Positions 9,538 through 49,375 of a stretch of DNA of 64,000 bases are shown here, in pieces. Made by a program: the position numbers and the translations under genes. The notes beneath the pieces were generated by a model. That model did not search any database and was not told where the DNA came from. It saw nothing but the letters and a program-made list of their open reading frames with translations. The stretch is from NCBI GenBank assembly GCA_014874185.1, contig JACWAF010000032.1, forward strand, positions 1-64,000, written 5' to 3'. This DNA is from Nitrospirota bacterium (GTDB taxonomy: Bacteria > Nitrospirota > Thermodesulfovibrionia > Thermodesulfovibrionales > JdFR-88). Positions within the stretch are counted from its first letter, which is position 1, and each line of letters starts with the position of its first letter.

Positions 9538-9620
9538 ATGCCAGTCTTTATTATAGCTAGCGGCGCGGGGTTTGACTATACGGGTGCCGAAAGGAACGGC
9601 AATTTTAGATAGATAGGGAC

Positions 9621-9649
9621 CGGGTCACCCGTGGGCGGGTGACTCCCAC
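9621..9649 (-). repeat. 29-bp palindromic repeat, second copy at 61632-61660 in opposite orientation
   Basis: CGGGTCACCCGTGGGCGGGTGACTCCCAC is the exact reverse complement of 61632-61660. Confidence 0.85.
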
Positions 9650-9652
9650 ACC

Positions 9653-9826
9653 AAAAAAATCCCTCCTAACCTCCCTTTGCCAAAGGGAGGGATTTACCCC
9701 TCTTTGGCGAAGAGGGGCAAGGGGAGATTTAAGGGAGGGATTTACCCCTCTTTGGCAAAGAGGGCAAGGGGAGATTTAAGGGAGGGATTTACCCCTCTTT
9801 GGCAAAGAGGGGCAAGGGGAGATTTT
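9653..9826. repeat. Tandemly amplified GC-rich palindromic element (three ~48-bp units)
   Basis: Three near-identical units AAGGGAGGGATTTACCCCTCTTTGGCaAAGAGGGGCAAGGGGAGATTT. Confidence 0.9.
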
Positions 9827-29854: not shown

Positions 29855-32131
29855 TTACCACCATTCAAGGGCCTCTATCAGGCACACAGCCCGGCTTGCG
29901 CGCTCCACTTTCTCTATGAAGAGCTTTCTGCCGCCAAAGAGCGGGCTGTCTATCTGCACCGTATCTCCCGGATCGAGGTCAAAGTGCTCCCAGAAGACCG
30001 GAAATACTGCCGTTATGTGCAGCTCTTTCCTTTCCAGGAGGATATGGTCCAGCACGCTCTGGGCCGTGGCGGTGTCCCTCACGCATTCAAAATCCAGTGT
30101 CCTTGAAAGCTCGCCATATTTGGCTATGGAAGCGGGATCGCTGGCGGAGAGCGTCTGCAGCCATGGGGACCTGGTGCCGGGGACCGTGTAGGCGCTGCCG
30201 AACCTGAGGATAATCGAGTTCATCATCTCCTGGATGTCGCGCTTCCTGAAGACGAACCCGCCGGCCCCCTTCGCAAGCTCCCCGCCGGAGATCGTCTTCA
30301 CCGGGGCGGGCGAGGCGTCGGGCACAGCGGTCAAACGCCAGAGGCCCCCCGTGCAGCTGAGCGCGGACCTGCACTCGAATGCCGCTTCCTGAAGGAATTC
30401 CCAGGGGCTTATCTCCCGGTTTATAGAGAAGGCCAGCTTGTAGCCGGCCGGGACATAGCCTGCATAAGCGGCGCCGGCCTGCGAGAAAGAGGCAAGGTCG
30501 ATGTCCGCGCCGGCAAAGATGCTCCGGGTCTTCAGGAAATGCCTTATCACGTGGTCCGGGCGCTCGATCACGGTGCCCTGTCCCCCGTAGGAGCCGTCCG
30601 GGTCCTTGTATCCGCTCACCACCGCGTGGAACCGGTCTATGAACCTCGTGGCGGCAAGCCCGCCCGTCTTGCTCACGCCTGACAGGGCGCTGCCGGTCGA
30701 GTCGGATTCTATCTCCAGCCAGACCTCGAATATCTGGCAGGTCACGACGTGGCTGTCCGAGGAGAAACTTATCACCGCGCTGGCGGGCACCGACGAACCG
30801 ATCGTCACATCGAATTTCTGGGTGGTGCGGCTTGAATCCCCCACCTGGTAATAGTAGAGCGTATTCTGGACGGAGTTGGCCGATGCCTTTACGTACTCGT
30901 TCACGCCTGGGTAATTGAGCTCGACATGATGAGAAACGCAGAGGTAGACACGCGCGGCCTGCGGGCCTGTGTAGGCCGGGAAATTTACCGTGACCGAGCC
31001 CGAATAAAGCCCAACGCTGGATGTGACCGCCTTCAGGTAAGTGGAATCAGACTGGTCTATGACGTTGGAATCCGTTCCGCTCCACGTCACGTTGCCCAGA
31101 GAGTTATGAGAGGCGCTGGCCGGCCTGTATACCTTGGTAGTGGAAGATCCATGGGTATGGCTGGCTTCGGCCAGCCCGATATTGTCTTTCACCGGCTTGA
31201 GTCCCACCTGCCTTGTGGCGCGCAGCTTCTGCTTTCCGCCTTCAAGGACGGAGGTCACCCCGGATGTGACCCTCAGGAGATGCCCGTCGAGTTCGGCGAA
31301 TATGTCGCCCACGGACTGAAGCTCATGCCCGGCAAGGAGCGAATCGTATCGGGAGCGCTTCTCGCCCGTGTCTGCCCCGGCCCTGTGCGGGCTGGCAGCC
31401 GTGGCGTTCGCCCCGCGCACGCAGCCGGAGACCATGTTTCCATTCTTGAAGGCGTAGTTTATCTCCTCGTCATCCACGATCAGCGTGCCTGAGGCGGGGA
31501 AGCGCGAGGCGTCCGACAGCTCGATGGAGGTGACCAGTGCGTCTATGTCCGCCACCAGTGTGGTCTTTGCGCCCCAGTCTATGCGCAGCGCCGGCACCAG
31601 GATATCGGAGCCGTATATGACCGGCTCTGTCTTTCCCAGGTCCTCGCAGGCGTTCGGATAGTCCGAGAGGTTTATCACCCCCTGCCTCCAGAAGCTCTCC
31701 ATCGCAAACGGCATGGAGACCGCTTCGCACGTGAACTCCGAAAGCCCTATCTCCCGCACCGCTGTTATTATGCCCTTGAAGAGGACTACGCTGTCCGACG
31801 CCGAACCCGAGTCATCCATGTAAGCCTCTTTTATTACGCAGCCCGCACCCTCGAAGGGGTAGGTGTCCCCTATCCCGGCCAGGTAATTGTAAGTCTTGAA
31901 TTCATCATTCAGCAGGATGATCTGCACCGGGGAGGCGGGGATTTTCCGCGTGCTCCTTCCGGCCTGGTTCGATATCCCGGAGAGGTCTTTCAGATATGCC
32001 TCGTACAACTGTCCGCCTGCGGAGATGTTGCGTTCGGAGAGATAAAGCGTGGGGCCGGAGTTGCCCAGCGTGATCTCCACCAGATAGACCGGCTCCAGAT
32101 AAGGGCGCGAGCGCGCCTCGCCGATGTTCAT
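29855..32131 (-). CDS. Phage tail hub/baseplate-type protein
   Basis: 758 aa; YLVEITLGNSGPTLYLSERNISAGGQLYEAYL start and a C-terminus with FDLDPGDTVQIDSPLFGGRKLFIEKVER; within late-gene cassette. Confidence 0.65.
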   Translation of the reverse strand: MNIGEARSRPYLEPVYLVEITLGNSGPTLYLSERNISAGGQLYEAYLKDLSGISNQAGRSTRKIPASPVQIILLNDEFKTYNYLAGIGDTYPFEGAGCVIKEAYMDDSGSASDSVVLFKGIITAVREIGLSEFTCEAVSMPFAMESFWRQGVINLSDYPNACEDLGKTEPVIYGSDILVPALRIDWGAKTTLVADIDALVTSIELSDASRFPASGTLIVDDEEINYAFKNGNMVSGCVRGANATAASPHRAGADTGEKRSRYDSLLAGHELQSVGDIFAELDGHLLRVTSGVTSVLEGGKQKLRATRQVGLKPVKDNIGLAEASHTHGSSTTKVYRPASASHNSLGNVTWSGTDSNVIDQSDSTYLKAVTSSVGLYSGSVTVNFPAYTGPQAARVYLCVSHHVELNYPGVNEYVKASANSVQNTLYYYQVGDSSRTTQKFDVTIGSSVPASAVISFSSDSHVVTCQIFEVWLEIESDSTGSALSGVSKTGGLAATRFIDRFHAVVSGYKDPDGSYGGQGTVIERPDHVIRHFLKTRSIFAGADIDLASFSQAGAAYAGYVPAGYKLAFSINREISPWEFLQEAAFECRSALSCTGGLWRLTAVPDASPAPVKTISGGELAKGAGGFVFRKRDIQEMMNSIILRFGSAYTVPGTRSPWLQTLSASDPASIAKYGELSRTLDFECVRDTATAQSVLDHILLERKELHITAVFPVFWEHFDLDPGDTVQIDSPLFGGRKLFIEKVERASRAVCLIEALEWW

Positions 32132-32865
32132 CCAAGCACCTCGACGAAATCGAATTTATATGAATAGCTTGAATAGGCGTCCTCGATGAGCGCCAGCGGC
32201 GACCTGAGCCGCCCATAAATCCAGTTGCCCTCGTGGTCATAAAGCCAGAATGGCTTGGCCCCCTGCCACGCGGAATTCAGGCCGAGTATGTCCGCCTTCT
32301 GCGCTTCCCCCGCATCCTTCATGTTATAGACCCTCTGGCGCTTCGGGCCGCCGCATATGAGGGACCTGTCAAGGCCGGATACGGTCTCGCCCGCAATTAC
32401 ATTGAAAACGTCCTCGAACGGCCCGCCCGGCCGGGCCGGAAGTTTCTGCCACTCGTGCGTCTCCGTTAGAAAGAGTTCCGGCATCTGCGGGACCACGGCA
32501 GGGTTTGTGATTGTGAACTTCCAGAAGCGGGAGGCGCGGGCCGTCCAGGATTTCTCGATAAGCCCATCTCCCATTTGGGTAAACTGGGGCGTAATATTTG
32601 TATATGAGATGTCGTCATCCGAATACTGGATGTCCATAAGCATCCCGTCCAGGTTGTGCCCCGCGGGGATGAGCAGCCTGTCCGCGGCGCCGATAAGGTT
32701 GGGGCCCTGATCTATCTTTATTGATAATGTGGACGCGGTCTGCGCCTTGAAGGGTTTGCCTATGTCGCGGTCATACAGCCTGTAAAGGGGAAAAGCGGGG
32801 TCTTCCGCCCCGGCCGCCAGCGTGACCGTGGAGGTCTCCAGGATGTTCTTGAAGCAGTGTTTCAT
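32128..32865 (-). CDS. Phage tail-associated protein
   Basis: 245-aa ORF with ATGA overlap to the tail hub gene. Confidence 0.6.
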   Translation of the reverse strand: MKHCFKNILETSTVTLAAGAEDPAFPLYRLYDRDIGKPFKAQTASTLSIKIDQGPNLIGAADRLLIPAGHNLDGMLMDIQYSDDDISYTNITPQFTQMGDGLIEKSWTARASRFWKFTITNPAVVPQMPELFLTETHEWQKLPARPGGPFEDVFNVIAGETVSGLDRSLICGGPKRQRVYNMKDAGEAQKADILGLNSAWQGAKPFWLYDHEGNWIYGRLRSPLALIEDAYSSYSYKFDFVEVLG

Positions 32866-32885
32866 AATAGCGTCCTCTTTTTCAA

Positions 32886-33047
32886 CTCCCCTTTAATTCC
32901 CCCTTAATTAAGGGGGAACGGAGGGGGGGGTTATGGTTTGGCTCTTTAGAAATTTCCGTGGGTCTTATCCCCCCTCTTAAGGTAAGAGGGGGCAAGGGGG
33001 AGTTAACCCCTCCTAACCTCCCCTTTAGCAAAGGGGAGGGATAAGAC
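32886..33047. repeat. GC-rich palindromic elements, composite
   Basis: CCCCCTTAATTAAGGGGG; CCCCCCTCTTAAGGTAAGAGGGGGC; CTCCCCTTTAGCAAAGGGGAGGGAT. Confidence 0.8.
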
Positions 33048-33090
33048 ACTGCTTCCACGCAATCCCCGGAAGAACCTTGATTTATTCCTC

Positions 33091-34131
33091 TTACCCCAGA
33101 ACATTCGCAGCCCTGCGGTTTACCACGTCTATCTGGAACGGCTTTACCGTATTCATCCCTGGCGGGGCGGTGTCCACGGCAAGACAGTCGAACTCCACCG
33201 TGGTCTGAAGAATCCCCTCCCTGGCGGATGTCTTCACATCGGAGGCTGCCAGGTTCGGGAAACTCAGTTTGAAACTTCTCCTTACAGGGCTCCCTATCGC
33301 CGTGCCCGTAAAGGTCATGTCCAGTTTTTTTGCCGCACCTTGTTCCCAGTCATTGAAATAGCCCTCCTCCACGCTTGAATATCGCGGGAATAGGAGTTTC
33401 AGCTTTATCTCCGGGTCTCCCGTTTGGGAGGGCTCGTCAATCTGGTCCGACGCGCTCCCCACCCCGCGCACCCCTTCCATCCGCCGCATGAACGAGAAGG
33501 AAAACCCGGATGGAAATATCGCATCGATATCCGCCAGCGCAGGCCCGTCCTGCGCGTTCATTCGGAATGCGCCCTGTGAGAAGAGCACCCGGTTCGCTAT
33601 CTCAAACCAGGTCACGTTATTAAAAGAAGCGGCCGTATTCACTGCCGAATCCGTGTTTATCCGGTCGGCCAGGATATGAAAACCGATCCTCAAGGGCGCG
33701 CCCGCCACGCCCCCAATATCGAAGCCGGTAATCTTTGCGCTGGTCACCTCGTCTATATTGACCGCGTTCTGAAGGCATATTGTGGCAAAAAGCCCGTCCG
33801 TGCCCTCCTGCGGAATGAACGACTGCGCGTATGCGGAGGCGTCGCCCTGCTTCACCGGAGCGCCCGCCGTCCCGCCCACGGCAAGGGCCAGAAGAATATC
33901 CAGCGAGTCGTACCGGAGAAACGCGGGAAGTACCCCGCCGCAGTTTAACGCTCCGTTTGAGCGGGTCTTCTGGAAGAGTGCGCCCAGGGCGTCTTCGGGT
34001 GCGCCTTTGATAGACCTCTCTATGGAATTTGGGAGAGCCAATATCCCGTCCTCCACCCCGCACAAGGCCGCAGTACCCCAGGCTGACGCCCTCTTTACGG
34101 CCGCTTTGATTTCCAGTGCTGATGCTCGCAT
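33091..34131 (-). CDS. Putative phage tail tube / major tail protein
   Basis: 346 aa, position between connector and hub genes; beta-rich C-terminus. Confidence 0.55.
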   Translation of the reverse strand: MRASALEIKAAVKRASAWGTAALCGVEDGILALPNSIERSIKGAPEDALGALFQKTRSNGALNCGGVLPAFLRYDSLDILLALAVGGTAGAPVKQGDASAYAQSFIPQEGTDGLFATICLQNAVNIDEVTSAKITGFDIGGVAGAPLRIGFHILADRINTDSAVNTAASFNNVTWFEIANRVLFSQGAFRMNAQDGPALADIDAIFPSGFSFSFMRRMEGVRGVGSASDQIDEPSQTGDPEIKLKLLFPRYSSVEEGYFNDWEQGAAKKLDMTFTGTAIGSPVRRSFKLSFPNLAASDVKTSAREGILQTTVEFDCLAVDTAPPGMNTVKPFQIDVVNRRAANVLG

Positions 34132-34149
34132 GAAAGGACTCCTTTATAA

Positions 34150-34405
34150 ATGGTCTCAAAATAGAATTGACATTAGTCATGAAATCTCCCCTATCCCCTC
34201 TTTTCCAAAGAGGGGGACCAAAACAGAGGCGCTCCTTAGAGGGGGACCCAAAACAGAGGCGCTCCTTAGAGGGGGACCCAAAACAGAGGCGCTCCTTAGA
34301 GGGGGACCAAAACAGAGGCGCTCCTTCATGGGTTCCTCCCTTTGGCAAAGGGAGGTTAGGAGGGATTTTTCGAAAAATTATGTTCATACTATGAGACCAT
34401 TATTA
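34150..34405. repeat. Composite palindromic element containing a ~30-bp tandem repeat (4 units), flanked by GGTCTCA / TGAGACC ends
   Basis: AGAGGGGGACC(C)AAAACAGAGGCGCTCCTT x4 between CCCCTCTTTTCCAAAGAGG and CCTCCCTTTGGCAAAGGGAGG. Confidence 0.9.
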
Positions 34406-34558
34406 AGATGAGCGCTTTATAAATTGTCATTCCTGCAACCTGGCACTCAGGATCCGGGCGTCGGGAACCCACCCCAGTCCCCTCCCCCGGAGGGGATAAA
34501 GGGGTGGGTAGATTCCGGACAAGCCGGAATGACAAAACGGCCAAAAGACATTTCAAAG

Positions 34559-34888
34559 TCAAGAGTAGATGTCCTCTATGACCAATATCTGCGACCCCCC
34601 GGCCGGAGTGAGCGTTGTCCTTGCGCCCGAAGGATCGAACATCGAGACCTCATAAACCCCGGTGAAGACCGCCCCCGTATCCGCAGCCGAGAGCGTTATG
34701 GAGAACTTCCCGTTCACGGCATCGTCCACCACGCCCGCGACCGGGCCGATCACGGCTGCCGCGTCTTCCTTCTTCTCCCGCGCGGTGAACTTGAAGCCCA
34801 TGCCGGTTATGTCTTTGGGCTGGCCGTTCCCGGTCAGCTGGTATTTGAGGGTGACCGTGTCCCCCTTCACGATCTTAAGCGCGTTCAT
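34559..34888 (-). CDS. Small Ig-like/BppU-N-like phage protein, paralog of 37960..38277
   Basis: KGDTVTLKYQLTGNGQPKDITGMGFKFTAREK ... VYEVSMFDPSGARTTLTPAGG. Confidence 0.7.
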   Translation of the reverse strand: MNALKIVKGDTVTLKYQLTGNGQPKDITGMGFKFTAREKKEDAAAVIGPVAGVVDDAVNGKFSITLSAADTGAVFTGVYEVSMFDPSGARTTLTPAGGSQILVIEDIYS

Positions 34889-35088
34889 TGCTGTATCACC
34901 TCGCTTTGGGATGTCTCATTTACTGCGGAGACGGACAAGACATCCGACACATCAATTCCCATGATCTCGACAGCCTCAACCTGAGGCGTTACATCCAATG
35001 CCTCGCGGCCCCCGGTCTCGACTGTAATGAGGGGCAGGCTGAATGTGGTCCCTCCACCCGTCCCGTAGCCCTTCGTGATTATGCTCAT
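34885..35088 (-). CDS. Small phage protein, start reassigned to MSIITKGYGTGGG
   Basis: ATGA overlap with the stop of 35085..35588. Confidence 0.6.
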   Translation of the reverse strand: MSIITKGYGTGGGTTFSLPLITVETGGREALDVTPQVEAVEIMGIDVSDVLSVSAVNETSQSEVIQQ

Positions 35089-35588
35089 GCCGGTGTCCTC
35101 GATATGTATGCCGGGCAGGGCCCCGATGCCGCGCCCAGGTTGAATTTTTTGAGGACGGCAACGCCGTCCTCGCGGTAGAGGGTGAGCGTGCCCGCCGCTG
35201 CGTCCAGCACCCATCTGCCGAATGCCTCGTCCGTGAGATCGCTTAAAAGCCCATGCAGGCCCTCATCCACCAGCTTGCCGCCCTTTACAAGCCCCTCGAA
35301 TATGCCGTTCCGGACCAAGGAACCGGACTGGCAGCGCGCGACCACCTGGTAATAGCCGTCCTGCCAAAGGGACTCGTCAACTAACGTTTCGTACATGCCC
35401 GGAAGGAAGGCCCCATCCACTTCGGCCATGTTGGAAGAGACATTCGCCCACCCGGAAGGCTTGAAGGCAAGGTCGCTCCAGTCCAGGAGGAAGCCGTCCG
35501 ATGCGCGCCGTAGCTTCAGGGCAATAGCCGAAGCGGCCCCTGTGACCGGATTGTTCGAGTCGTCAAAGATGCTCCATAACAGCTCCAT
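35085..35588 (-). CDS. Phage structural accessory protein, unknown function
   Basis: 167-aa ORF in tightly packed late operon. Confidence 0.6.
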   Translation of the reverse strand: MELLWSIFDDSNNPVTGAASAIALKLRRASDGFLLDWSDLAFKPSGWANVSSNMAEVDGAFLPGMYETLVDESLWQDGYYQVVARCQSGSLVRNGIFEGLVKGGKLVDEGLHGLLSDLTDEAFGRWVLDAAAGTLTLYREDGVAVLKKFNLGAASGPCPAYISRTPA

Positions 35589-35719
35589 CAGCTCACCCCC
35601 AGTTTCTTTAGTATCAGTGCCAGCATCTCCCTCAATTCGGCATCGGAGAGCTTTTGCTTTCCGTTCAGTTCACAAAGCCTTTTCTTTACCGGGCACTGCG
35701 CCACATTAACCTTGCTCAT
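35588..35719 (-). CDS. 43-aa small phage ORF (MSKVNVAQCPVKKRLCELNGKQKLSDAELREMLALILKKLGVS)
   Basis: Not in the ORF track (too short); start overlaps the end of 35706..35978, and stop abuts the next start. Confidence 0.5.
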   Translation of the reverse strand: MSKVNVAQCPVKKRLCELNGKQKLSDAELREMLALILKKLGVS

Positions 35720-35978
35720 CCATCTCCTCCCAGCCGTCCCTCTGATGAAGCTCCCATCCGTTTGCGCCCTGCGTGAGAAAATATTTCCCCTGACCGCTTG
35801 CGTCCTTCCTGCCCTGCACCTTATATAAATCCAGGCAGATGCCCTTGTTGTCCGGCAGAAGCTCGTCTACCAAAAACTCGGCAAGCGGGATATTCGTCTT
35901 GTGATCGAACATGAACCAGTCACGGTCAGGCACCGTGTAAAAGACCTCGCCGTCATCCGGATTGAATAGAACTCTCAT
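35706..35978 (-). CDS. Small phage protein (start reassigned to MRVLFNPDDGEVFYTVPDRDWF)
   Basis: AGGAGG Shine-Dalgarno upstream of ATG at 35978. Confidence 0.6.
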   Translation of the reverse strand: MRVLFNPDDGEVFYTVPDRDWFMFDHKTNIPLAEFLVDELLPDNKGICLDLYKVQGRKDASGQGKYFLTQGANGWELHQRDGWEEMDEQG

Positions 35979-35986
35979 CCGTCCTC

Positions 35987-37498
35987 CTAGTCGATATAGC
36001 CGTAAGTGGCCGCATTCGCGCTTTCGTCCGTGGTGTTGCCCGAATACTGGTTTGTAGAGGTGAACGTTATCGAGCTTTGGAATTCGGCATACAATCCGTT
36101 TCCCTGGTTGAAGTTCCTTATCCTCGGGTACCCCCAGGCCGCGGCCGTCCAGAGGCTTATGGATGTCTTGTCGCTTGCGTAGAGCCCGGTCGTCCACCTG
36201 TAAACGCCGGAGTCAAAGACGCAGCCCGCGCGCACGAAAAGGCCGCAGCTCATCGTGGCCCGAAGGTTGGGGGTGGAGTCCTTTCCGTTTACCACCTTCG
36301 TCCTCTCGAATGCCGCCGTAGAGCCCTTCTCAAGGTAGACAACCGGGTTCACCGCCGACTGGCCCATATAAGATATTTGCACGAAGATGCTCGACTGGTC
36401 TGAAAGGCTTACCTTTCCCGTGAGCTTGCAGACTGCGGGCGTGGCCTGCGCGTTCGTGAGGTTCAGGGCCGTTCCGCTTGCAGTGCTGTTCAAAAAGATA
36501 AAGTTCAGATTTACGCCCCTCTGCCCGGGGTTTATGGACAGCGGAGTCCCTGAGTTCTGTATCACTGTGCCCCAGTCGTAAACGGTATAAGCGCCCGCTG
36601 GAACGGAATCGAATGTGCCCACGATCGCCAGCTTGTCCGCCGTATTCCAGTCGATTATCCGGTAGGCCCCGTTTACATATAAAATCCTGTTCGCGTACGC
36701 GCCCTGCACCACCTGGTCGGCATCCGCTGCAAGGTGGGCGTATTGGAGCGCGCCGTTTACGGTAAGCTGCGTGCCGGACGGGATGGAGAGTATATGGCGC
36801 ACCTCTTCCCTGGGCCCGCCGGGGTTGATCACCACCTGGCCGCCAACGGTGAAACTGGCCGTGCCGGCCACGTTCAGGGCCGTGCCGCCCGCGGCGGAAT
36901 CGGCATTCACGCTGGAGGAGGCCGTAACGGGAAAGGCCCCGGCGTTTGCAATAGAGCCCTGTGTCGCGCCCGTGCCCTGCACCGCCGAAGTGAGAGTGCC
37001 CGCCGCAAGCTGAGTAAGCCCGCCGTTTATTGAAAGGCTATACGCCCCTGTAAAGGACTTGCCCTGTATGGTGACCGCCTCGCTGTAAGCGCCCGCGGCA
37101 AGGTCCACGGTGATGTTGCCGGAGTTCATGGGAGGAATCTGGTTAATGGCGAACTGCACCGTGCGGAAGGCGTCCGCTCCAGAGCCAAAGCCCTTGTTCT
37201 GGTCATCCGTCCCAAGCGCCCCGTCCACATAGATGGTCATCTGGATAAAGGAAAATATCGGCACCCAGGCATGGCCGTTATATTGAAAAAGTATCTGCCG
37301 TCCGGCGGGAGTGTGCAGGAACCACTGGCCCAGTGCGGGCGATGAAGGAAGGGCGGGCCCGTTGTCGCATGAAAGGGCCACTGCCCTGAACCCGTTCAAG
37401 TTCAAATCCCCGTTCAGGCTGAGGCCCGAAAAATTAGGCGTTGCGCCTGCGCCAAGGGCCTGCGGCGCGGGCTGTTCTATCGTATCAATCAGCGGCAT
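35987..37498 (-). CDS. Phage tail fibre / beta-helix-like adhesin
   Basis: 503 aa; repetitive beta-rich composition (GLSLNGDLNLNGFRAVALSCDNGP ... ITVDLAAGAYSEAVTIQGKSFTGAYSLSINGG). Confidence 0.65.
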   Translation of the reverse strand: MPLIDTIEQPAPQALGAGATPNFSGLSLNGDLNLNGFRAVALSCDNGPALPSSPALGQWFLHTPAGRQILFQYNGHAWVPIFSFIQMTIYVDGALGTDDQNKGFGSGADAFRTVQFAINQIPPMNSGNITVDLAAGAYSEAVTIQGKSFTGAYSLSINGGLTQLAAGTLTSAVQGTGATQGSIANAGAFPVTASSSVNADSAAGGTALNVAGTASFTVGGQVVINPGGPREEVRHILSIPSGTQLTVNGALQYAHLAADADQVVQGAYANRILYVNGAYRIIDWNTADKLAIVGTFDSVPAGAYTVYDWGTVIQNSGTPLSINPGQRGVNLNFIFLNSTASGTALNLTNAQATPAVCKLTGKVSLSDQSSIFVQISYMGQSAVNPVVYLEKGSTAAFERTKVVNGKDSTPNLRATMSCGLFVRAGCVFDSGVYRWTTGLYASDKTSISLWTAAAWGYPRIRNFNQGNGLYAEFQSSITFTSTNQYSGNTTDESANAATYGYID

Positions 37499-37949
37499 AT
37501 GTCCTGTCGAACCTCGTCTGAAAATCTATAGTGTAGACGGCGTAAGCGCCAGAAAGCTCCACAATCGAAATCCTCTTCGGAGCAAGCTTCTCCATATCCA
37601 GGCCCAGGTCCTGATTGGCAAACGCGGTGAGCAGGTCTTCTATCATCCTGTAGGCCCCGTACTCTGTGGAGTTGGCCTGCCCGCGCCCGGCAAGATTTTT
37701 GGCGGCCGCGTAAACCGTGAACCCGAGCGTCTCCTGCAAGGTGAGATTATCCAGCTTCTCGAACTCCGAGCCGCCATACGCGATGAATACCGCCGGGAAG
37801 CCCGTTGCAAGCGTCTTCAGGCTCTCCTTCATCTGCCCGCTCGACATGAATACGGGGCTAAAGCCCCCCGGGGCCTGCACCGCCTTCAGATACGGCATCG
37901 CCGTCTTCAGCTTTTCGGCGATCTTCTTTTCTATGTCCTCGAACCTCAT
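37485..37949 (-). CDS. Mu gp37-like (DUF1834) protein
   Basis: Start MRFEDIEKKIAEKLKTAMPYLKAV, AVFIAYGG; gene order after gp36-like. Confidence 0.65.
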   Translation of the reverse strand: MRFEDIEKKIAEKLKTAMPYLKAVQAPGGFSPVFMSSGQMKESLKTLATGFPAVFIAYGGSEFEKLDNLTLQETLGFTVYAAAKNLAGRGQANSTEYGAYRMIEDLLTAFANQDLGLDMEKLAPKRISIVELSGAYAVYTIDFQTRFDRTYAAD

Positions 37950-37959
37950 CGGGCCTCCT

Positions 37960-38277
37960 TCAGACGATCTCTATCCCGATCCCGCCGGGCGGCGTAAGCG
38001 TTATCTCCGCGCCATCTCCGCTTCGCATGAATACCTCGTAAATCCCCTTTAAAGGGTCCTCCGTGTCCAGAACGGTGAAAAAGAACCTGCCCTTCTTCTC
38101 ATCCTCTATTACGCCTTCAACGGGCCGGAATCCCGCTTTAAGCGGGACTTTGGCAGGGCCTTTGGTCTTTACCCGGAAGCTGAAATTTTTCCCCCTTATA
38201 TTGACGGGGCTTCCGTTTTCAGTGAGTTGATAACGCAAAAGGACCTTCTCGCCTCTTCGGATATTGAGGGGCTCCAC
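37960..38277 (-). CDS. Small Ig-like/BppU-N-like phage protein, paralog of 34559..34888
   Basis: RRGEKVLLRYQLTENGSPVNIRGKNFSFRVKTK ... IYEVFMRSGDGAEITLTPPGG. Confidence 0.65.
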   Translation of the reverse strand: MEPLNIRRGEKVLLRYQLTENGSPVNIRGKNFSFRVKTKGPAKVPLKAGFRPVEGVIEDEKKGRFFFTVLDTEDPLKGIYEVFMRSGDGAEITLTPPGGIGIEIV

Positions 38278-38694
38278 TCAGAATTCCTCCATGCCTTCCA
38301 TAGTCAGGATCCTGTTATTCACGTCCGAATTGGTGGCGGGCTTCCCTCCCGCTGTCTGGATCCCAAGCGAAAGCGCGCCAGCCCCGATGGCCTCCAGTTT
38401 CTGGACCGCCTCTTTTCTCCTTTCGGCAAGCGTGTCGGGCAGTACGTCCGCCTTTCTCTCGAAGAGGCTGCAGATGGCAAGCTCCGCCGAAAGCTCCTGT
38501 ATCAGCGCCGGTACGCTCGTGAACGGCACGTCGTAAAGCCCGCCGCAATATCCGTCTATCAGCGAATCGGCCCCGGATATGGCCTGGTCCATGCGCGGCT
38601 GGTTCACAACGCCAAGCCCCTCGTCATCCGTAAGCTGTATAAGCTCCGCCTCGGGCAGCATGTTTTCCAGGTCGTCCAATGTGCAGTAAGGCAT
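38278..38694 (-). CDS. Mu gp36-like (DUF1320) protein
   Basis: MPYCTLDDLENMLPEAELIQLTDDEGLG...RMDQAISGADSLIDGYCGGLY. Confidence 0.8.
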   Translation of the reverse strand: MPYCTLDDLENMLPEAELIQLTDDEGLGVVNQPRMDQAISGADSLIDGYCGGLYDVPFTSVPALIQELSAELAICSLFERKADVLPDTLAERRKEAVQKLEAIGAGALSLGIQTAGGKPATNSDVNNRILTMEGMEEF

Positions 38695-38779
38695 TTGGTC
38701 CCTCCTTTTCGGGGCGGCAGTATTCTACCGCCGCCCCTTTAAGGTTTATATCTCTTCGATTTGCTGTGGCATTCCAGTC

Positions 38780-38815
38780 CCCCTCTTTAGCAAAGAGGGG
38801 ATAGGGGAGATTTTC
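38780..38815. repeat. GC-rich palindromic dispersed element
   Basis: CCCCCTCTTTAGCAAAGAGGGGATAGGGGAGATTTT. Confidence 0.8.
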
Positions 38816-38948
38816 CGAATATTCCAAGCATTCTCCATATCCGCATCCGATGCCCTCTAGCGAGAATTCATTTTAAAATCCCTCCTCACCCCCTTTTCCA
38901 AAGGGGGGATTGCCTAAACAATTCTCCAGAAGAGAGATAAAAGTTTTC

Positions 38949-39878
38949 TTACACTATGGCGTTCTGGATGAGGTAGCCAAGCTCCGGCGCTATCACCTTC
39001 TCGTCGGAGTTCCAGGCGGCCTTTATGTAATGCGCCCCTTTCACGCCGCGCTTCGGGTCGAAGTCCCTCTGCACCTGCCGCGGCATCTCGCAGAACGTAG
39101 TGCCGAATGTGATGCTCCTTATGCCGGGGTTCTTCGCCACGTACAAAGCGGCGCAGTGCTTGCCCCACAGGCGGGCGTAAGAGGCGGTCTGCCCCTCCCT
39201 GCTGGTAATGTACCGGGCCCTTCCGATAAGCACGCTCTCCACCTCGAAGAGGGCGGCCACTTCGGAAGGTGTTGCGAAACCCGCCGTCTGGCTGCCAAAA
39301 GGCTTTACCGCGTCCAGCACCTCAGGGAGCTGCCTGAACTTGGCCCACGCCTCCGCCCCGAAGACCAGCGTGTTGGCCCTCATGAAACAGCCCTCGACGG
39401 CGCTCATCAGGTCCCCGATGGGGTCGTCCGCACTCCCGCCCCACTGGCCGGTCCCCGAAAGCGCCACCTTGTTGCCCGCGGGATAGGTATTGGCATTGAA
39501 GACCACGTCCGCAACCCTCTTCTCCTCTGCCACGTCCAGCAGCAGGTTCAGAAACAGCGCGGTGTCCGCTTCGGGCGAAAGCGGGTTGTCCGCATTATCA
39601 ATCACCTCCTGCGGCACCCAGTCCCCCAGGGCGTGGTCCACCACCGAATAGCTGTCCTCCAGCACGCCCCAGGTGATCTCGTTGGGAAGCCCCTTCGCTA
39701 TCACAGCGTCATCGGCCAGCCTATAGCTGTCTTCTTTCTTGTAGATGAAGTATTTGTCCGAGCGCTTCGCTACCTTCACAAGCGGCAAAACCAGCGGCCA
39801 GATCATGGCCTCATTCGTGTACTTCACCGAAAGGTCCGTCAGGACCGTGTCAACATGAAGCGTTTTGGTCTCCGGCAT
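38949..39878 (-). CDS. Phage major capsid protein
   Basis: 309 aa; VLTDLSVKYTNEAMIWPLVLPLVKVAKRSDKYFIYKKED typical of HK97-fold capsids following a decoration protein. Confidence 0.75.
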   Translation of the reverse strand: MPETKTLHVDTVLTDLSVKYTNEAMIWPLVLPLVKVAKRSDKYFIYKKEDSYRLADDAVIAKGLPNEITWGVLEDSYSVVDHALGDWVPQEVIDNADNPLSPEADTALFLNLLLDVAEEKRVADVVFNANTYPAGNKVALSGTGQWGGSADDPIGDLMSAVEGCFMRANTLVFGAEAWAKFRQLPEVLDAVKPFGSQTAGFATPSEVAALFEVESVLIGRARYITSREGQTASYARLWGKHCAALYVAKNPGIRSITFGTTFCEMPRQVQRDFDPKRGVKGAHYIKAAWNSDEKVIAPELGYLIQNAIV

Positions 39879-39893
39879 CTTCTTCCTCCTTTC

Positions 39894-40325
39894 CTAAACA
39901 AGTGCCGGCGCTATCAGCACCGGGATTATGTCTCCGGCAGAGCCGCTTGCAAGCGCAATGCCGATCGTGTTCACGGTCCCCGCCGCGCCAGTAACAGCGT
40001 TCTGCGTGTAGGCCGCCGCCGTGTTCTCAGTGTGCGTGTGCCTGGCTGCGGCCACGCCGCTCCCGCTCGCGTCCGATGTGAGCCTGTCCCCCCTGCTGAC
40101 GGGACCTCCCAGCACCACCCGCGAAACACCCGAGAGCATCACCCTCACCGCGTCCCCGGCGTTGTCCGTCGTGTGCTGGAAAACCCCCACCAGCACATCG
40201 GTTGCCGCCCCGGCAACCGCCAGCGTGTCATCGTCCGCGCCGAATGCGGCCAGCGTGTAGGCCGCCCCTATCGCGGCCGCGCACTTCGCGCTCTTTTCAA
40301 TACCACTCGTCTGTCCTATCATCAA
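39894..40325 (-). CDS. Capsid decoration protein (DUF2190-like)
   Basis: Ala/Gly/Val-rich 143 aa; VLVGVFQHTTDNAGDAVRVMLSGVSRVVLGGPVSRGDRLTSDA. Confidence 0.7.
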   Translation of the reverse strand: MMIGQTSGIEKSAKCAAAIGAAYTLAAFGADDDTLAVAGAATDVLVGVFQHTTDNAGDAVRVMLSGVSRVVLGGPVSRGDRLTSDASGSGVAAARHTHTENTAAAYTQNAVTGAAGTVNTIGIALASGSAGDIIPVLIAPALV

Positions 40326-40346
40326 AAGACCTCCTTTCTTTTCTAT

Positions 40347-40448
40347 CTACTTTCTCTTTTTTGCAAAAAAGAGAAAGTAGCAAAGAGAAAAAATTCTTAC
40401 TTTAAGTAAAAGTTCTCTTTGGTTCTTTCTCTTACAAGAGAAAGAACC
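40347..40448 (+). repeat. Triple-hairpin AT-rich dispersed element, copy 3
   Basis: CTACTTTCTCTTTTTTGCAAAAAAGAGAAAGTAG ... TTACTTTAAGTAA ... GGTTCTTTCTCTTACAAGAGAAAGAACC. Confidence 0.85.
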
Positions 40449-40472
40449 GGGGGTGAGGGGCGGAGCCCCTCC

Positions 40473-41360
40473 CTATCTGAACATCTCCGGGTTTTCCGCG
40501 GAGAGGGCCATGAGGGCGTCCCGGTAGGTTGAGCCGCCGTTTGCGTTCATGTACTGGTCCAGGAGTTTCTGCCTCTTCGTCTCCGGGTCCCCGTCGGGTT
40601 TTGCCAGTTCGGAGTAGCTGACGATATCGGGCAGGGCTTCGAGGAATTCGTGTAAAAAAACTGCCGGGGTCTTTTCGCCCTGGCCTTCGGCGAAGGAATA
40701 GGCCTCTTCCATTCGGGAGATGGCCTCGATGAATTTCGGCAGGCCGGCCTTCATCATGGCGGGTGTGACCTTGCCCCTTTTGAGGAGCCCTTCGCAGAAC
40801 TCCGCGGCCTCTTTCGCCCTCAGGGCGCGCTCCTTCTCCTGGAGTTCGCGCTCGCGCCTCTCAAGCTCTTCTGAGAATGCGTGCTCCTCGTTGAACTCCT
40901 CGCTTATAAGGCTTTTGAGCCTCGAAAGAAAATTCTTCATCCTTTCTACCTCCTTTCTTTCCGGATTTAATTCGATCTCCACCAGAGGGCCCGCGTCCTT
41001 GAACTCGAACTCCGGCAGCCCCTTCACGGCGGGCGGCATCGCGCCAAGGAATCCTATGTGCCGCAGCGTGAGGTCCGGGTAGAGCGAGATGGAGCGCTTT
41101 TTAAAAAGGCCCTTCCTGATGATCTCAGCGAACTCCGGCACCAGTTTGAGCTTGGCCAAAAGCACGCCGCCTTCTCTTTTAAGCCCCTCCACCCAGCCCC
41201 AGGCCGGGGCGTTGTCCATTGGATGGCCGATCACCACGGGGGCCTCGTGCCGCGCGGGTTCGTAGCTCTGGGCGATTTTCTCCAAATCCGCCTCCGTCCA
41301 GTTTTTTTCATTCCCCTGTGAATCCGTATGCGTTCCAGCCTTAAAGACAGCAGTCCACAT
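40473..41360 (-). CDS. Mu gpI-like phage protease/scaffold
   Basis: MWTAVFKAGTHTDSQGNEKNWTEADLEKIAQSYEP...APVVIGHPMDNAPAWGWV. Confidence 0.8.
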   Translation of the reverse strand: MWTAVFKAGTHTDSQGNEKNWTEADLEKIAQSYEPARHEAPVVIGHPMDNAPAWGWVEGLKREGGVLLAKLKLVPEFAEIIRKGLFKKRSISLYPDLTLRHIGFLGAMPPAVKGLPEFEFKDAGPLVEIELNPERKEVERMKNFLSRLKSLISEEFNEEHAFSEELERRERELQEKERALRAKEAAEFCEGLLKRGKVTPAMMKAGLPKFIEAISRMEEAYSFAEGQGEKTPAVFLHEFLEALPDIVSYSELAKPDGDPETKRQKLLDQYMNANGGSTYRDALMALSAENPEMFR

Positions 41361-41370
41361 GTCAGTCCTC

Positions 41371-42555
41371 CTAAACCTGGCCCGTTATCGGCTCGTCCTT
41401 CATGGGCTCCGGTATCCCGTAAGTGGAATAAAAATACTTTTTCGGAATGCGGACGCCCATGCGGAGGAGCGCCTCGTCTATGCGCACGCGTGATTCCAGG
41501 TTCTCCTGCTCGTCGAACTTGATCCACACCTTCGGATACCGCTTCACGCCGGGATAGTTGAAATCCACAAGCCACCGGATGAGCCCCTTGTTCAGTGCGT
41601 TTGACAGCAGGTCCGCATCGGCCTTCACGTAATCCTGCCGCACTCCATCGTGCACCTTCGACGCCGCGTAGGAGCCAGTGTCGCCCACCTGGGTCGTGAG
41701 CGTCTGCCCCAGGATTGTCTTCGATATCTCCTCATTCATGAACGAGCAGAGGGCCTCGTAAGTATTCACCGTGCCGGTGCGCTGGGCCTCCAACAACTCC
41801 ACCCGCATGGTCTCGGGGATCTTTATCGCGGTCTCCTGCTGGATGGCCTCCAGCGCGGACAAGAGCGCGTCCTGGTGCTCCTTTGGCGTGCCGGGCGGGT
41901 ACTTGCCGATTACTGTCGGCGAGCCGAATTTCTCGGCGAAGATCATCCAGAACTTTATCGCGTTCTTCTTGAACCAGCAGGGCCAGTAAAGGCTTGCGCC
42001 CAGCCCGTCGCCATAAAGCGATCCGTTCTCGCCCCCATACCGGAATATCTGGAACTTTTTATCCGGCACCGGCTCTCCAAAGGCCATCTCCTTTGGCGTA
42101 AGCAGCCTCAAACTTCCGTCCGTACCGAAGACAAACCTTCCAGCCGACCTGCCCGGCATATCCTTCACCCAGACAGAGCCCTCGGAGTACTCCCACAAGA
42201 CCTCGCACACCTTGAATCCCGTGAGTATGCCCCCAAGGAGCGCATATCTAGACGAATCGAAGTCGAAGGCCAGGAACGCGTCCTTGATGAACGCGGCGAT
42301 CTCCAAGTCCTGCTGGTCTTCACCTCCGGGCACCACCTCCCATTCCTTCCCGATCACTGCCAATCGCCTGGACTGAAGACACGCCCTCACCTGCGGGTCG
42401 CGCGCCAGGTCTTCATACAGCCCTATCCCCCGCCCCTCCGAACGCAAAAGCCTGTCAGGGTTAAGCACCACCTTGCCCAGATAATCCCCGAAGAGCGAAA
42501 AATCCCTCTCCGCCCCAGCTATCTCGTCAAGAACGGGTCTTTCAATAGTGCTCAA
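41371..42555 (-). CDS. Mu gp29-like portal protein (DUF935)
   Basis: GIGLYEDLARDPQVRACLQSRRLAVIGKEWEV ... SKTILGQTLTTQVGDTGSYAASKVHDGVRQDYVKADADLL. Confidence 0.9.
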   Translation of the reverse strand: MSTIERPVLDEIAGAERDFSLFGDYLGKVVLNPDRLLRSEGRGIGLYEDLARDPQVRACLQSRRLAVIGKEWEVVPGGEDQQDLEIAAFIKDAFLAFDFDSSRYALLGGILTGFKVCEVLWEYSEGSVWVKDMPGRSAGRFVFGTDGSLRLLTPKEMAFGEPVPDKKFQIFRYGGENGSLYGDGLGASLYWPCWFKKNAIKFWMIFAEKFGSPTVIGKYPPGTPKEHQDALLSALEAIQQETAIKIPETMRVELLEAQRTGTVNTYEALCSFMNEEISKTILGQTLTTQVGDTGSYAASKVHDGVRQDYVKADADLLSNALNKGLIRWLVDFNYPGVKRYPKVWIKFDEQENLESRVRIDEALLRMGVRIPKKYFYSTYGIPEPMKDEPITGQV

Positions 42556-42590
42556 TATCTCTCGCCTCCTTTCTTTTTAGAGTCCAAGTC

Positions 42591-42716
42591 CTACTTCTCT
42601 TTTTTGCAAAAAAGAGAAGTAGCAAGAGAAAAAATTCTTGTATTTTTTCGCTTCCGGACGGGAGCGAAAAAATCTAAAAATTCTCTTTGCTTCTTTCTCT
42701 TACAAGAGAAAGAAGT
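42591..42716 (+). repeat. Triple-hairpin AT-rich dispersed element, copy 4
   Basis: CTACTTCTCTTTTTTGCAAAAAAGAGAAGTAG ... TTTTTTCGCTTCCGGACGGGAGCGAAAAAAT ... CTTCTTTCTCTTACAAGAGAAAGAAG. Confidence 0.85.
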
Positions 42717-42732
42717 CAGTTCTCTTTTCATT

Positions 42733-44244
42733 TCAAAACCCCCTCAGTGAGCTAAACGCCCTGTGGCCGGCGGATTCGTATTCGAAGAGGGCGGTGGGGG
42801 CCTTGCCTGCGTATATGCCAAGGGCGGCGGCCCAGAACCTGTCCGCGTGGCCGTCCCCGTCCCGTTCGGCCAGGAAGCGGGAGTGCCCGGCGTATGTGGC
42901 CTCGCGGCGTATGCGGTAAAAATCCTCGCGTATGGAATTGGAAATGGGAATTCGCACCCTGCGCTCTTCGAGTGCCCGCCTCATGTCGAGGGCGAGCCTT
43001 TCTTTGACGGGCAGGCTGAATGTGACCGCCTCCACCTGCGGGCCGAACTTTGCAGTCGTTTCTTCGGCAAGCTGCGCGCCAAGCCCGGTGGAGTCTATGG
43101 CCGTGCGGGTTATGCGGATGCCGAAAGAGCCGTCAAGAAGGGCGTATAGGAAATCGCGCTGGATGGAAAACGGCGTGTCCCGAAGCTCGCGCACCATGCG
43201 GGTCCGGAAGACGTCGCCTTCTTTTTGCCAAAGCCAGAAGACCGTGAGGTCATGCTTTCTTCCGATATCCACGCCCAGGTAGAAATCACGACAAATCCCC
43301 CCCTGCCCCCCTTTTCCAAAGGGGGGGACCAAAAACCCCGGCGCGTTTGAAAGTCCTGTTCCATCCGAATTTCTATCCGGGTTTGGATATTCCCCCTTGG
43401 CCCCGCTTAACTTAAGTGGGGAGACATCTGGTAACAATAAGGGGGAACGAAACGGGGCATTTCCATTAAATGAGGGATCTGCCATGCTCCCCCCCTTTTC
43501 TAAAGGGGGGTGAGGGGGAATTACCAAATCGCAGCTGGCCTCTTCGCTCTCGCATGAGGCGATGAGTTCGTAGCTGATGAATGCCCCGGCGCTGTCCAGA
43601 AAGACGCACTCGTACTCCTGCGCCCATGAATCAGGGTCGAAGATGCCTTTTTTGAGTTCGTCAATAGAGATGGGCAGGCCTTCGTTTACGGCGTCGTAAA
43701 TGGTGGTCTTGTGCTGACTGTAGCCGGACTGACTCCAGAGGGTATGGAAAAGGCTCCCTGCTTTTCCGTTGGGGGTCGAGGAGACGCGGAGCTTGTAGCC
43801 CCGTGTTACGGCGGGATACATCGCCCGCCATATCTCTCCTGCGTCCTTGTGGAAGGCGAACTCATCCAGGTACACGTTTCCGGAAAAGCCGCGGACCGTG
43901 TCCGGATTAGCCGGGAGGGAGATTATACGGGAGCCGTTTGGCAGGCGCACTTCTTCCCGTGTATCGTCGAACACAATGCGTTCTTCGCGGGAGGAGAAGT
44001 GCCTGAGGTGGGCGAGAACCTTTTCCATTACCTCTCTGGACTGCCTCTCGGAGGCAGATAGTATGAGGTTTGCCGAGCGGGCCTCGAGGCCTTCGGCAAC
44101 AGCCTCAAGCGCGATAGTGAAAGACTTCCCCGTCTGCCGCGCGGCAAGCCATATCTTGCGCGGGCCGCGGTCTGCAAGCCACCGCCTCTGATAGGGAAGC
44201 AGTATCGTCTTATCCATCAATGCCGACGCCATAGTCCGTTTCAA
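42733..44244 (-). CDS. Mu gp28-like terminase large subunit
   Basis: LAARQTGKSFTIALEAVAEGL (Walker A-like), VYLDEFAFHKDAGEIWRAM, nuclease LGVDIGRKHDLTVFW. Confidence 0.87.
   Translation of the reverse strand: MKRTMASALMDKTILLPYQRRWLADRGPRKIWLAARQTGKSFTIALEAVAEGLEARSANLILSASERQSREVMEKVLAHLRHFSSREERIVFDDTREEVRLPNGSRIISLPANPDTVRGFSGNVYLDEFAFHKDAGEIWRAMYPAVTRGYKLRVSSTPNGKAGSLFHTLWSQSGYSQHKTTIYDAVNEGLPISIDELKKGIFDPDSWAQEYECVFLDSAGAFISYELIASCESEEASCDLVIPPHPPLEKGGSMADPSFNGNAPFRSPLLLPDVSPLKLSGAKGEYPNPDRNSDGTGLSNAPGFLVPPFGKGGQGGICRDFYLGVDIGRKHDLTVFWLWQKEGDVFRTRMVRELRDTPFSIQRDFLYALLDGSFGIRITRTAIDSTGLGAQLAEETTAKFGPQVEAVTFSLPVKERLALDMRRALEERRVRIPISNSIREDFYRIRREATYAGHSRFLAERDGDGHADRFWAAALGIYAGKAPTALFEYESAGHRAFSSLRGF
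43286..43533. repeat. GC-rich palindromic modules inside the terminase ORF (three modules)
   Basis: CCCCCCTGCCCCCCTTTTCCAAAGGGGGGG; CCCCGCTTAACTTAAGTGGGG; CCCCCCCTTTTCTAAAGGGGGGTGAGGGGG; frame stays open. Confidence 0.85.
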
Positions 44245-44485
44245 GGATGTCCCTGGTTATCTCTTTCAGCTCGTCAGGGGTAAGCCTGCCCTTCGATTCG
44301 GCCTTCATCTTTCTTAGCAATTCGACGGCGGTCTTCACCATGCCCGTGTAGGCGCTCATGGCCTGGTTCTCGATCTTCTCCGGTTTGGACTCGAAGTATT
44401 TTTCATAGCGTTTCTTCTGATTGAGCAGGTCTTTTATCAACTCAAGCTCCAGGTCTTTTTCCTTTTTTTCCTTTGCCGGACTCAT
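44210..44485 (-). CDS. Putative terminase small subunit-like / helical phage protein
   Basis: 91 aa, lysine-rich helical, immediately upstream of the large terminase. Confidence 0.5.
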   Translation of the reverse strand: MSPAKEKKEKDLELELIKDLLNQKKRYEKYFESKPEKIENQAMSAYTGMVKTAVELLRKMKAESKGRLTPDELKEITRDILETDYGVGIDG

Positions 44486-44784
44486 AGGGATTCGTCCACG
44501 CCGGTCTCCGCGATATTGCCGTCCAGCAGGTCCCAGCCTTTGGCGGTGAGGCTTGCGTAGACCAGCCTGAAGCCCGCGCCTTTTTTGGTCTCGGCCCGCA
44601 GAAGGCCCTTCTCCTGCAAATACTTGAGGTGGGCCGAAAGGGAGCTTTCAGTCATCGGGAAACCCAGGTTGTCCAGGGTGAACCTCAGCACTTTCAGATC
44701 GAGCGCGCCGGGGTATTGGGTCTTCAGTATCTCCAGGACGGCGGCCCTTATCCGCTTGTTCTTCTCAGCCCCTATTGATCTCAT
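44482..44784 (-). CDS. Winged-helix phage protein
   Basis: ALDLKVLRFTLDNLGFPMTESSLSAHLKYLQEKGLLRAETKKGAGFRLVYASLTAKGWDLL. Confidence 0.65.
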   Translation of the reverse strand: MRSIGAEKNKRIRAAVLEILKTQYPGALDLKVLRFTLDNLGFPMTESSLSAHLKYLQEKGLLRAETKKGAGFRLVYASLTAKGWDLLDGNIAETGVDESL

Positions 44785-45107
44785 CGGCTCTCCTTTTTGT
44801 GTATGAGGTCGTGTTCGCGCCTTACCCGTTCAAGTTCCGTATGGTCCTGGGCTATGTACCGGAGGAGCACAAGCATCTCCCTGTGCTCGGAATTGTCCTT
44901 TGTCACAAGCTCTCGGACGCTGTCCTTCAGCATCTCCATGCTCTGGGCCTGCCTGCCAAGCGCGTCTGCCTGGGCCTGCTGGGCGCGCACAAACTCCAGG
45001 CCCAGACGGTTGGCTATGCGGTAAAGGCCGATAAGCACGATGAAGGCTATTGCGGCGCCCACGCCCGCGTTGGCCAGGGCCTTCGCAAGGTCCCCCTCGA
45101 AACTCAT
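44781..45107 (-). CDS. Single-TM lysis accessory / holin-like phage protein
   Basis: One TM segment AGVGAAIAFIVLIGLYRIA, then a coiled coil; next to lysis genes. Confidence 0.5.
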   Translation of the reverse strand: MSFEGDLAKALANAGVGAAIAFIVLIGLYRIANRLGLEFVRAQQAQADALGRQAQSMEMLKDSVRELVTKDNSEHREMLVLLRYIAQDHTELERVRREHDLIHKKESR

Positions 45108-45493
45108 TTAAGCCTTCCGCCAAACCAGCTTGCCACTATGAAGAGGAGAGCAGCGCGGGTGGAGGCGTCCAGCGGAAGGGTGCCAAGCGTCTGGAAACCT
45201 ATGAAAAGCATGGAGAGGCATACGGTGGCAGGCCTTATCGTGGCCCTCAGGTCAGAGACCCACGGGCTCACCGTGCCCACCACGTCCCGGTTGAACCACT
45301 GGGTCTTTGCCTCCATCAGCTTGGCCGAGGCCTCCGTGTAGGCCGGAAGCACGTCTGGCTTTGTTGTGGCCAAAGAGCTTATCGTCTGCTCCGGCGTGTC
45401 GTCCTCTTTTTTGACAAATATCTTTTTGATAAGGTCCAGGACTGGCGGAAGGACGAGCCCCCCGATGGTGGATATCGCCTCGATTGGGAACAT
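45104..45493 (-). CDS. Putative holin (3TM-type) membrane protein
   Basis: 129 aa with amphipathic segment and TM helices; next to endolysin. Confidence 0.55.
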   Translation of the reverse strand: MFPIEAISTIGGLVLPPVLDLIKKIFVKKEDDTPEQTISSLATTKPDVLPAYTEASAKLMEAKTQWFNRDVVGTVSPWVSDLRATIRPATVCLSMLFIGFQTLGTLPLDASTRAALLFIVASWFGGRLK

Positions 45494-45568
45494 GAAAAAA
45501 CCTCCTTTTAAAAAGGGATTGGAATCAATATTCCGGTAAAAAGAACCAATAAGGAGAGCAAATCAATT

Positions 45569-45686
45569 TGTAATCTCCCCTCACCCCTCTTTACAAAAGA
45601 GGGGGACTTTAACCCACCCCTGCACCCCTCCAAGGAGGGGACTTTAAAATCCCCCTTTCCTAAAGGGGGACGGAGGGGGATTACCG
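45569..45686. repeat. GC-rich palindromic elements, composite
   Basis: CCCCTCTTTACAAAAGAGGGGG; CACCCCTCCAAGGAGGGG; CCCCCTTTCCTAAAGGGGG. Confidence 0.8.
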
Positions 45687-45726
45687 ATTTATTTTCATCT
45701 CCGCCTTTTCTTCCAAATCTTCCGGC

Positions 45727-46458
45727 CTACCCTGCCGGCCTTTTGCCAGCCTTGAGGTCCGCAAGACTGAGCCCGCCAGTGTACTCGAAGTGCCCGTAAT
45801 CCCTGAACCTGAACCTGCCGCCCCATCTGAGGCCAAGTGATTCGCCAATCTTTCCCAGCTCTTCGTAATCGGGGAGATGGTTGTCGTTCAGGTCAGCCTT
45901 CGTGTCCCAAACGATCTCTTCGCCACTTAACCCCGCTTGATCCCCCCTTGAATTACCCTCCACTGAGTCACCCCTTAAGATAACCCCCCCAGCCCCCCTT
46001 AAATTAAGGGGGGCTGGGGGGGTTATCAATGCCACGTCGAAGGCCAGCCCGAACTGGTGGATGGAGGTCAGGTTCCGGGTGACCACCCTGTTCTCCTTCC
46101 CGGCTATCGGGGCAAGCCCGGCCTCCGCCCTCAACCTGTTCACCTCTGCAAGGGGCTTTCTGCCCTGCGCAAAATACGCCAGCTGTTCCTTCTCCGTTCT
46201 CAATGTGCTTATGACCTTGAACTCCAGGCCCCTTTGGGCGGCAAGCTTTTCAAGCTCGCCGAGCTTCGCTCTAGCAAGGGGATTTAGCGCCTGTGGGTCT
46301 CTCAATCCGGTCACCTCCTTTTCAATTTCCCCGTTGAAGCAGCCAAAACAAATCTCGTCATCCGGGAGGGGGATGCAGCGGAGGCTCTTCTCCACCCGGC
46401 ATCTTGCCCTCTCTTTCAGTCTCCTTCTGCTCCAGCTAATGAACCCGGCGTTCATCAT
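45727..46458 (-). CDS. M15-family peptidase endolysin
   Basis: SIHQFGLAFDVALI ... WDTKADLNDNHLPDYEELGKIGESLGLRWGGRFRFRDYGHFEYTGGLS. Confidence 0.88.
   Translation of the reverse strand: MMNAGFISWSRRRLKERARCRVEKSLRCIPLPDDEICFGCFNGEIEKEVTGLRDPQALNPLARAKLGELEKLAAQRGLEFKVISTLRTEKEQLAYFAQGRKPLAEVNRLRAEAGLAPIAGKENRVVTRNLTSIHQFGLAFDVALITPPAPLNLRGAGGVILRGDSVEGNSRGDQAGLSGEEIVWDTKADLNDNHLPDYEELGKIGESLGLRWGGRFRFRDYGHFEYTGGLSLADLKAGKRPAG
45943..46028. repeat. GC-rich palindromic module inside the endolysin ORF
   Basis: CCCCCCCAGCCCCCCTTAAATTAAGGGGGGCTGGGGGGGTTAT perfect inverted repeat; frame stays open. Confidence 0.85.
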
Positions 46459-49230: not shown

Positions 49231-49241
49231 TAAAAGAAAAT

Positions 49242-49375
49242 TGTTCTTTTTCTTATAAGAAAAAGAACCAAAAAGAATTTTTACTAAAGTCCCGACGGCC
49301 TCTTCTATTTTTTTGCCCCGAAAGGGGCAAAAAAATCCAGAAGTTCTTTTGCTTCTTTTCTTACAAGAAAAGAAG
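49242..49375 (+). repeat. Triple-hairpin AT-rich dispersed element, copy 5
   Basis: GTTCTTTTTCTTATAAGAAAAAGAAC ... TTTTTTTGCCCCGAAAGGGGCAAAAAAA ... CTTCTTTTCTTACAAGAAAAGAAG. Confidence 0.85.

Follow-up and report, generated by a model that had tools for sequence, protein, structure and literature searches.

The terminase locus and its insert

The window, a stretch of 64,000 nt from the 2.43-Mb draft genome of a member of the Thermodesulfovibrionales (Nitrospirota; hereafter G000), contains a compact phage-type gene cluster in which two genes are interrupted in frame by repeat-derived DNA. The features of interest are as follows.

29855..46458, minus strand: structural phage-type cluster (tail, adaptor, capsid, protease, Mu-type portal, terminase, endolysin)
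42733..44244, minus strand: open reading frame (ORF) of the terminase large subunit (TerL), 503 aa, carrying an insert; identified by Terminase_6N and Terminase_6C, PHROG terminase families and a fold match to solved large terminases
43294..43524, minus strand: 77-codon insert, in frame, in the ATPase-nuclease linker (site A); missing from homologs, open in one of six frames, pLDDT <50
43294..43331, no strand assigned: outer repeat unit made up of a tail and the hairpin 43304-43328; inverted partner of 43485-43522, with 91-92% identity to copies elsewhere in the genome
43380..43421, no strand assigned: middle, divergent repeat unit, hairpin 43401-43421
43485..43522, no strand assigned: outer repeat unit, hairpin 43490-43510; 94% identity over 36 nt to G000:C30:163403-163438
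45730..46458, minus strand: endolysin of the M15 peptidase type (Peptidase_M15_4) with a second in-frame insert, defined by alignment with ten insert-free relatives
45979..46027, no strand assigned: 49-nt near-perfect palindrome in the endolysin gene, encoding TPPAPLNLRGAGGVI

TerL has the ATPase and RNase H-like nuclease domains of a large terminase together with their catalytic residues. In a domain profile search Terminase_6N spans residues 33-228 and Terminase_6C spans 324-474, and structure comparison of an AlphaFold model recovers the two-domain fold of the P74-26, T4 gp17, Sf6 and HK97 large terminases. Positions invariant in an alignment of 60 homologs are retained, including G35, D123/E124, D322 and D380, which we take to be Walker A, Walker B and, for the last two, the nuclease aspartates.

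The insert (VIPPHPP...GQGGI) comprises codons 43524-43294 of the minus strand, or residues 237-313 counted from the ATG at 44232, and is flanked by CESEEASCDL before and CRDFYLG after. It falls between the two domains, directly ahead of DFYLGVDIGRKHDLTVFW. The initial annotation had reported about 75 extra residues at this linker, just before the nuclease motif, with coordinates that prove right to a few bases. It had also counted three copies of a palindromic module; three hairpin units are indeed present, although the middle one is a divergent copy (TTGGCCCCGCTTAACTTAAGTGGGG) with a different tail. The outer two form an inverted pair with 38-nt arms, 79% complementary and 153 nt apart, which together make one large hairpin as in a REPIN, and the insert RNA is predicted to fold strongly as a single large stem (z -3.2). 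Of the six frames, that of TerL alone is open through the insert; the initial annotation had noted that the frame stays open. A copy of a dispersed palindromic repeat lies here inside a conserved protein gene with the frame kept.

Inspection by eye found no target-site duplication at the insert: GATTTG occurs on both sides, but we do not take it for one because its right-hand copy runs into the tail of the element. We also discarded translational bypassing of the insert, since the GATTTG copies are read in different frames and the insert frame is open.

The AlphaFold model, built on the 60 homologs, is confident everywhere but in the insert; pLDDT is below 50 at residues 247-252, 254-301 and 308-312, with no secondary structure there. 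The 77 residues are thus modelled as a disordered spacer between two intact domains. The insert is probably translated, and we infer that TerL retains packaging activity with it in place.

A repeat family essentially private to one genome

With one mismatch allowed, the repeat core CCCCNCTTNNNNNAAGNGGGG occurs at 138 places in the genome and at none for a reversed control; looser matches within the window number 48, against 0.09 expected. From 47 copies listed in register (consensus by eye), the unit has a tail of ~12 nt, AATCYCCCCTCR, and then the hairpin CCCCYCTTTNNNAAAGRGGGG; in the hairpin, T/C changes on one arm are paired with A/G on the other, and the copies carry this tail rather than a GTAG or CGTC tag. 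The units in the TerL insert share 85-94% identity with other genomic copies.

Across 392 kb of the 2.43 Mb, picked for holding elements, called genes account for five core matches, of which TerL holds three, the endolysin gene one and a doubtful 5' end the last, and the other 60 fall outside, in agreement with the earlier description of the module as otherwise intergenic. A search of the genome for other ORFs containing the insert peptide returned weak, short matches only. In eleven other members of the family we found 0-7 matches to the repeat, mostly near control counts. The repeat is therefore essentially private to its genome, and its insertion into TerL is lineage-specific. When repeats inside genes of other genomes were counted automatically, the method failed to pick up the window insert and returned tandem repeats as false positives; its results serve as leads only.

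A separate dispersed repeat, in which inverted runs surround ctcttttttgcaaaaaagagaag, adjoins TerL at 42575-42720 of the window and is found again at 49233-49375, within a minus-strand ORF.

Empty and filled sites in related terminases

Counting that of the window, 15 of 61 searched genomes carry the terminase. Alignment reveals empty linker sites in relatives, for example ENEKATADPGDLAGGEFYLG and EDPNASVSGNVLGPYDYYLG. Homologs free of inserts mostly have 7-22 linker residues, a distinct group having a conserved linker of 35-43 residues, and those without the repeat family do not carry the linker sequence seen in the window. Two positions have been filled repeatedly in the Thermodesulfovibrionales: the ATPase-nuclease linker (site A) and a loop of the nuclease domain ahead of the second catalytic aspartate (site B).

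Site A, G000: window repeat family
Site A, G039: similar CCCCC hairpin
Site A, G001: CGTC-type
Site A, G002: GGATACCGG repeat
Site A, G004 and probably G005/G008: GAGGGTG-type
Site A, G011: GTAG-type
Site B, G001: CGTC-type, more than one unit
Site B, G011, G007 and G004: GTAG pairs
Site B, G039: GGATTCCCG-type
Site B, G048: GGGGA-type, three copies

Site B measures 27-74 residues in its six filled terminases, compared with 4-15 in all other aligned homologs. Distinct palindromic families thus occupy the same two sites in at least six relatives, whose inserts include ones with GTAG or CGTC ends, unlike the window family. Compared with dinucleotide shuffles, folding is more stable for all 12 inserts tested, though by a modest margin for the shortest (G005), and in a model of the G001 terminase both inserts lie in low-confidence segments (about residues 251-273 and 341-396). 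Most filled sites match repeats found elsewhere in their own genome: CGTC-type repeats have 39 such matches in G001 and 22 in G039, and GTAG-type repeats 14 in G011, nine in G007 and four in G004. The copies of G048, a small sample, were found solely within its cluster contig.

G001 and G011 belong to one genus and have sister terminases, yet carry different elements at both sites, which places the arrival of the elements, or their replacement, later than the split between the two lineages. Because relatives have entirely different repeats in the same two loops, TerL seems to be a gene in which translated selfish DNA lands recurrently. The initial annotation had read repeated insertion from the three units of a single insert, which alone are no proof of three events; repetition is instead borne out by other genomes and by the endolysin.

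In-frame inserts in other genes

The endolysin insert consists of the 49-nt palindrome and an additional stretch up to a conserved KAD, both absent from the ten relatives. The head-protease homologs of G001 and G011 (L219:2383-3924, minus strand, and L273:12032-13465, plus strand) contain in-frame DSRLRGND-type REP peptides beside their DUF6582 domain, a domain that the window homolog does not have. In the window's own genome, insertion within genes extends beyond those of phage type: a host Mur ligase gene (L214:6722-8155, minus strand) contains, in frame, the short repeat-derived segment SPLPGGDKGVGS.

Elements are concentrated in the phage-type clusters, which hold 9 of 39 in G001, 6 of 14 in G011 and 6 of 22 in G039, each far above uniform expectation, with p-values that are indicative only since the counts were made after the clusters had drawn attention. 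Enrichment in the G000 cluster is partly regional, the remaining window also being above the genome mean.

Prophage or resident gene cluster

No integrase, transposase or replication genes, and no Mu-type transposition or Gam genes, were found among the scanned genes of the cluster (29855-46458) and its neighbors, which sets it apart from a Mu-like prophage. The G007 copy (L258), by comparison, is a Mu-like prophage with a MuB-like ATPase and Gam, and its terminase is closely related to those of the structural-only clusters. The terminases of G000, G002, G003, G005 and G008 form one supported clade (100/99), and the clusters of this clade share host neighbors in varying order and number: a LuxR regulator, a response regulator, an Smr protein, NrfD and ferredoxin genes and an S11 peptidase. 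For the window cluster and its flanks to 52.3 kb, terminase clade and host neighbors are thus common to four genomes of three other genera. This sharing fits vertical inheritance and, together with the structural-only gene content, suggests that the cluster may be vertically inherited and phage-derived rather than a mobile prophage. The "phage" gene of the initial annotation may accordingly belong to a resident cluster of phage origin.

An alternative is that the cluster is a decaying prophage and the insert a step of pseudogenization that chanced to keep the frame. We consider this unlikely. The lack of mobility genes found near the cluster and its density of repeats speak for it, but every structural gene of the cluster is open, the syntenic G003 cluster is complete too, and the separate inserts in several genomes all keep the frame. 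Pairwise dN/dS is also low, 0.12-0.16, between divergent terminase relatives and 0.31, from few changes, for one very close pair, values that reflect mainly the time before insertion. With its one open frame and its invariant positions kept, TerL is not the frameshifted pseudogene that had been named as a reason to reject the initial reading.

The cluster is perhaps a domesticated element resembling a gene transfer agent; given its frequent rearrangements, we regard this as a lead, not a result. Like gene transfer agents, it is a compact set of structural, packaging and lysis genes with no mobility genes among those scanned, seemingly vertical in part of the family; it differs from them in its Mu-type portal and capsid module. 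As a syntenic structural cluster it may lead to an undescribed gene-transfer-agent-like element in the Nitrospirota.

Origin of the insert

We conclude, with a probability of roughly 0.8, that the TerL insert arose when a short palindromic repeat confined to this lineage was copied in as a REPIN-like cluster and tolerated, like events having been repeated in the clusters of relatives. Short palindromic elements would copy around the genome and survive mostly between genes; a REPIN-like cluster of AATCYCCCCTCR-tailed hairpins would have been copied into the terminase gene in this way. In-gene copies would survive where a disordered loop and an open frame coincide, and the TerL insert presumably did so because it lies in an unstructured linker, has a length divisible by three and contains no stop in that frame. 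By the same route, many times over, the palindromic repeats of each lineage would have reached sites A and B of TerL, the endolysin (in the window) and the head-protease homologs. Random transposition filtered by the tolerance of disordered loops is the likely process, with transposition the presumed route of copying for the window repeat and the TerL insert apparently neutral. The spread of inserts over several proteins argues for tolerance.

A broader reading joins the two questions: in a domesticated, vertically inherited cluster of the gene-transfer-agent kind in the Thermodesulfovibrionales, REP-type elements of the host would recurrently refill the two TerL loops with the host's own palindromic family, and the changing linker would alter motor behavior or expression. 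We find this improbable. Also improbable is that a longer linker is adaptive in itself, the spacer or the mRNA hairpin altering motor behavior or expression. Unrelated sequences do fill the same two loops again and again, and the insert RNA is predicted to fold strongly; against this, the endolysin and head-protease homologs have inserts too, insert sequence and length vary freely, and several relatives do without an insert. That the insert is an ordinary terminase linker resembling the repeat by chance can be dismissed. In its favor, some distant homologs have a natural linker, conserved at 35-43 residues and of another kind; but near relatives have short or unrelated linkers, and the idea is already contradicted by the shared repeat units, which match other genomic copies at 91-94% over some 36 nt, with no control matches.

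Relation to known repeat systems

Insertion and tolerance of a palindromic repeat in frame recall the Rickettsia palindromic elements (RPEs), which are ~105-150 bp long and lie in frame in many genes, where the added peptide is tolerated (PMC2229807, PMC10969869). The likeness is one of behavior, a palindromic repeat adding a peptide in frame, and the parallel drawn in the initial annotation, with a different host and repeat family, is borne out. The host here is of another phylum, the repeat is a short tail with a GC-rich hairpin, the target is a phage-type packaging motor, and several families strike the same two loops.

Intragenic REPs tagged GTAG or CGTC have been described as units and pairs within ORFs of many genomes, adding 20-82 residues, often to DNA-processing genes (PMC3733652). 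The inserts of G001, G007 and G011 resemble these two tag types, whereas the window family has neither tag. In that study recB was struck at about the same site in two Xanthomonas species, and the text mentions no prophage (PMC3733652); in the present case two sites recur across genera and families. A partial literature search turned up no report of such repeats within terminase genes. The novelty lies in the target, a phage-type packaging motor, in the phylum, and in several repeat families having used the same two loops across genera. Translated selfish repeats, best known from Rickettsia, are thereby extended to another phylum and to such a motor. One protein with two loops, several unrelated repeat families and both filled and empty relatives forms a natural replicate series, through which the question of whether in-frame insertion is tolerated or selected can be asked directly.

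The inverted pair of outer units and the presence of a RAYT gene in the genome recall REPIN/RAYT systems. In this draft assembly no transposase was tied to the window repeat family: the sole clear RAYT (NF047646; L215:9221-9778, region 9139-9810) has GTCACCCGC (GTCACCCGCNNGCGGGTGAC-type) repeats on both sides rather than those of the window family, and a copy of the window (CCCC) family lies just beyond one of these bordering repeats.
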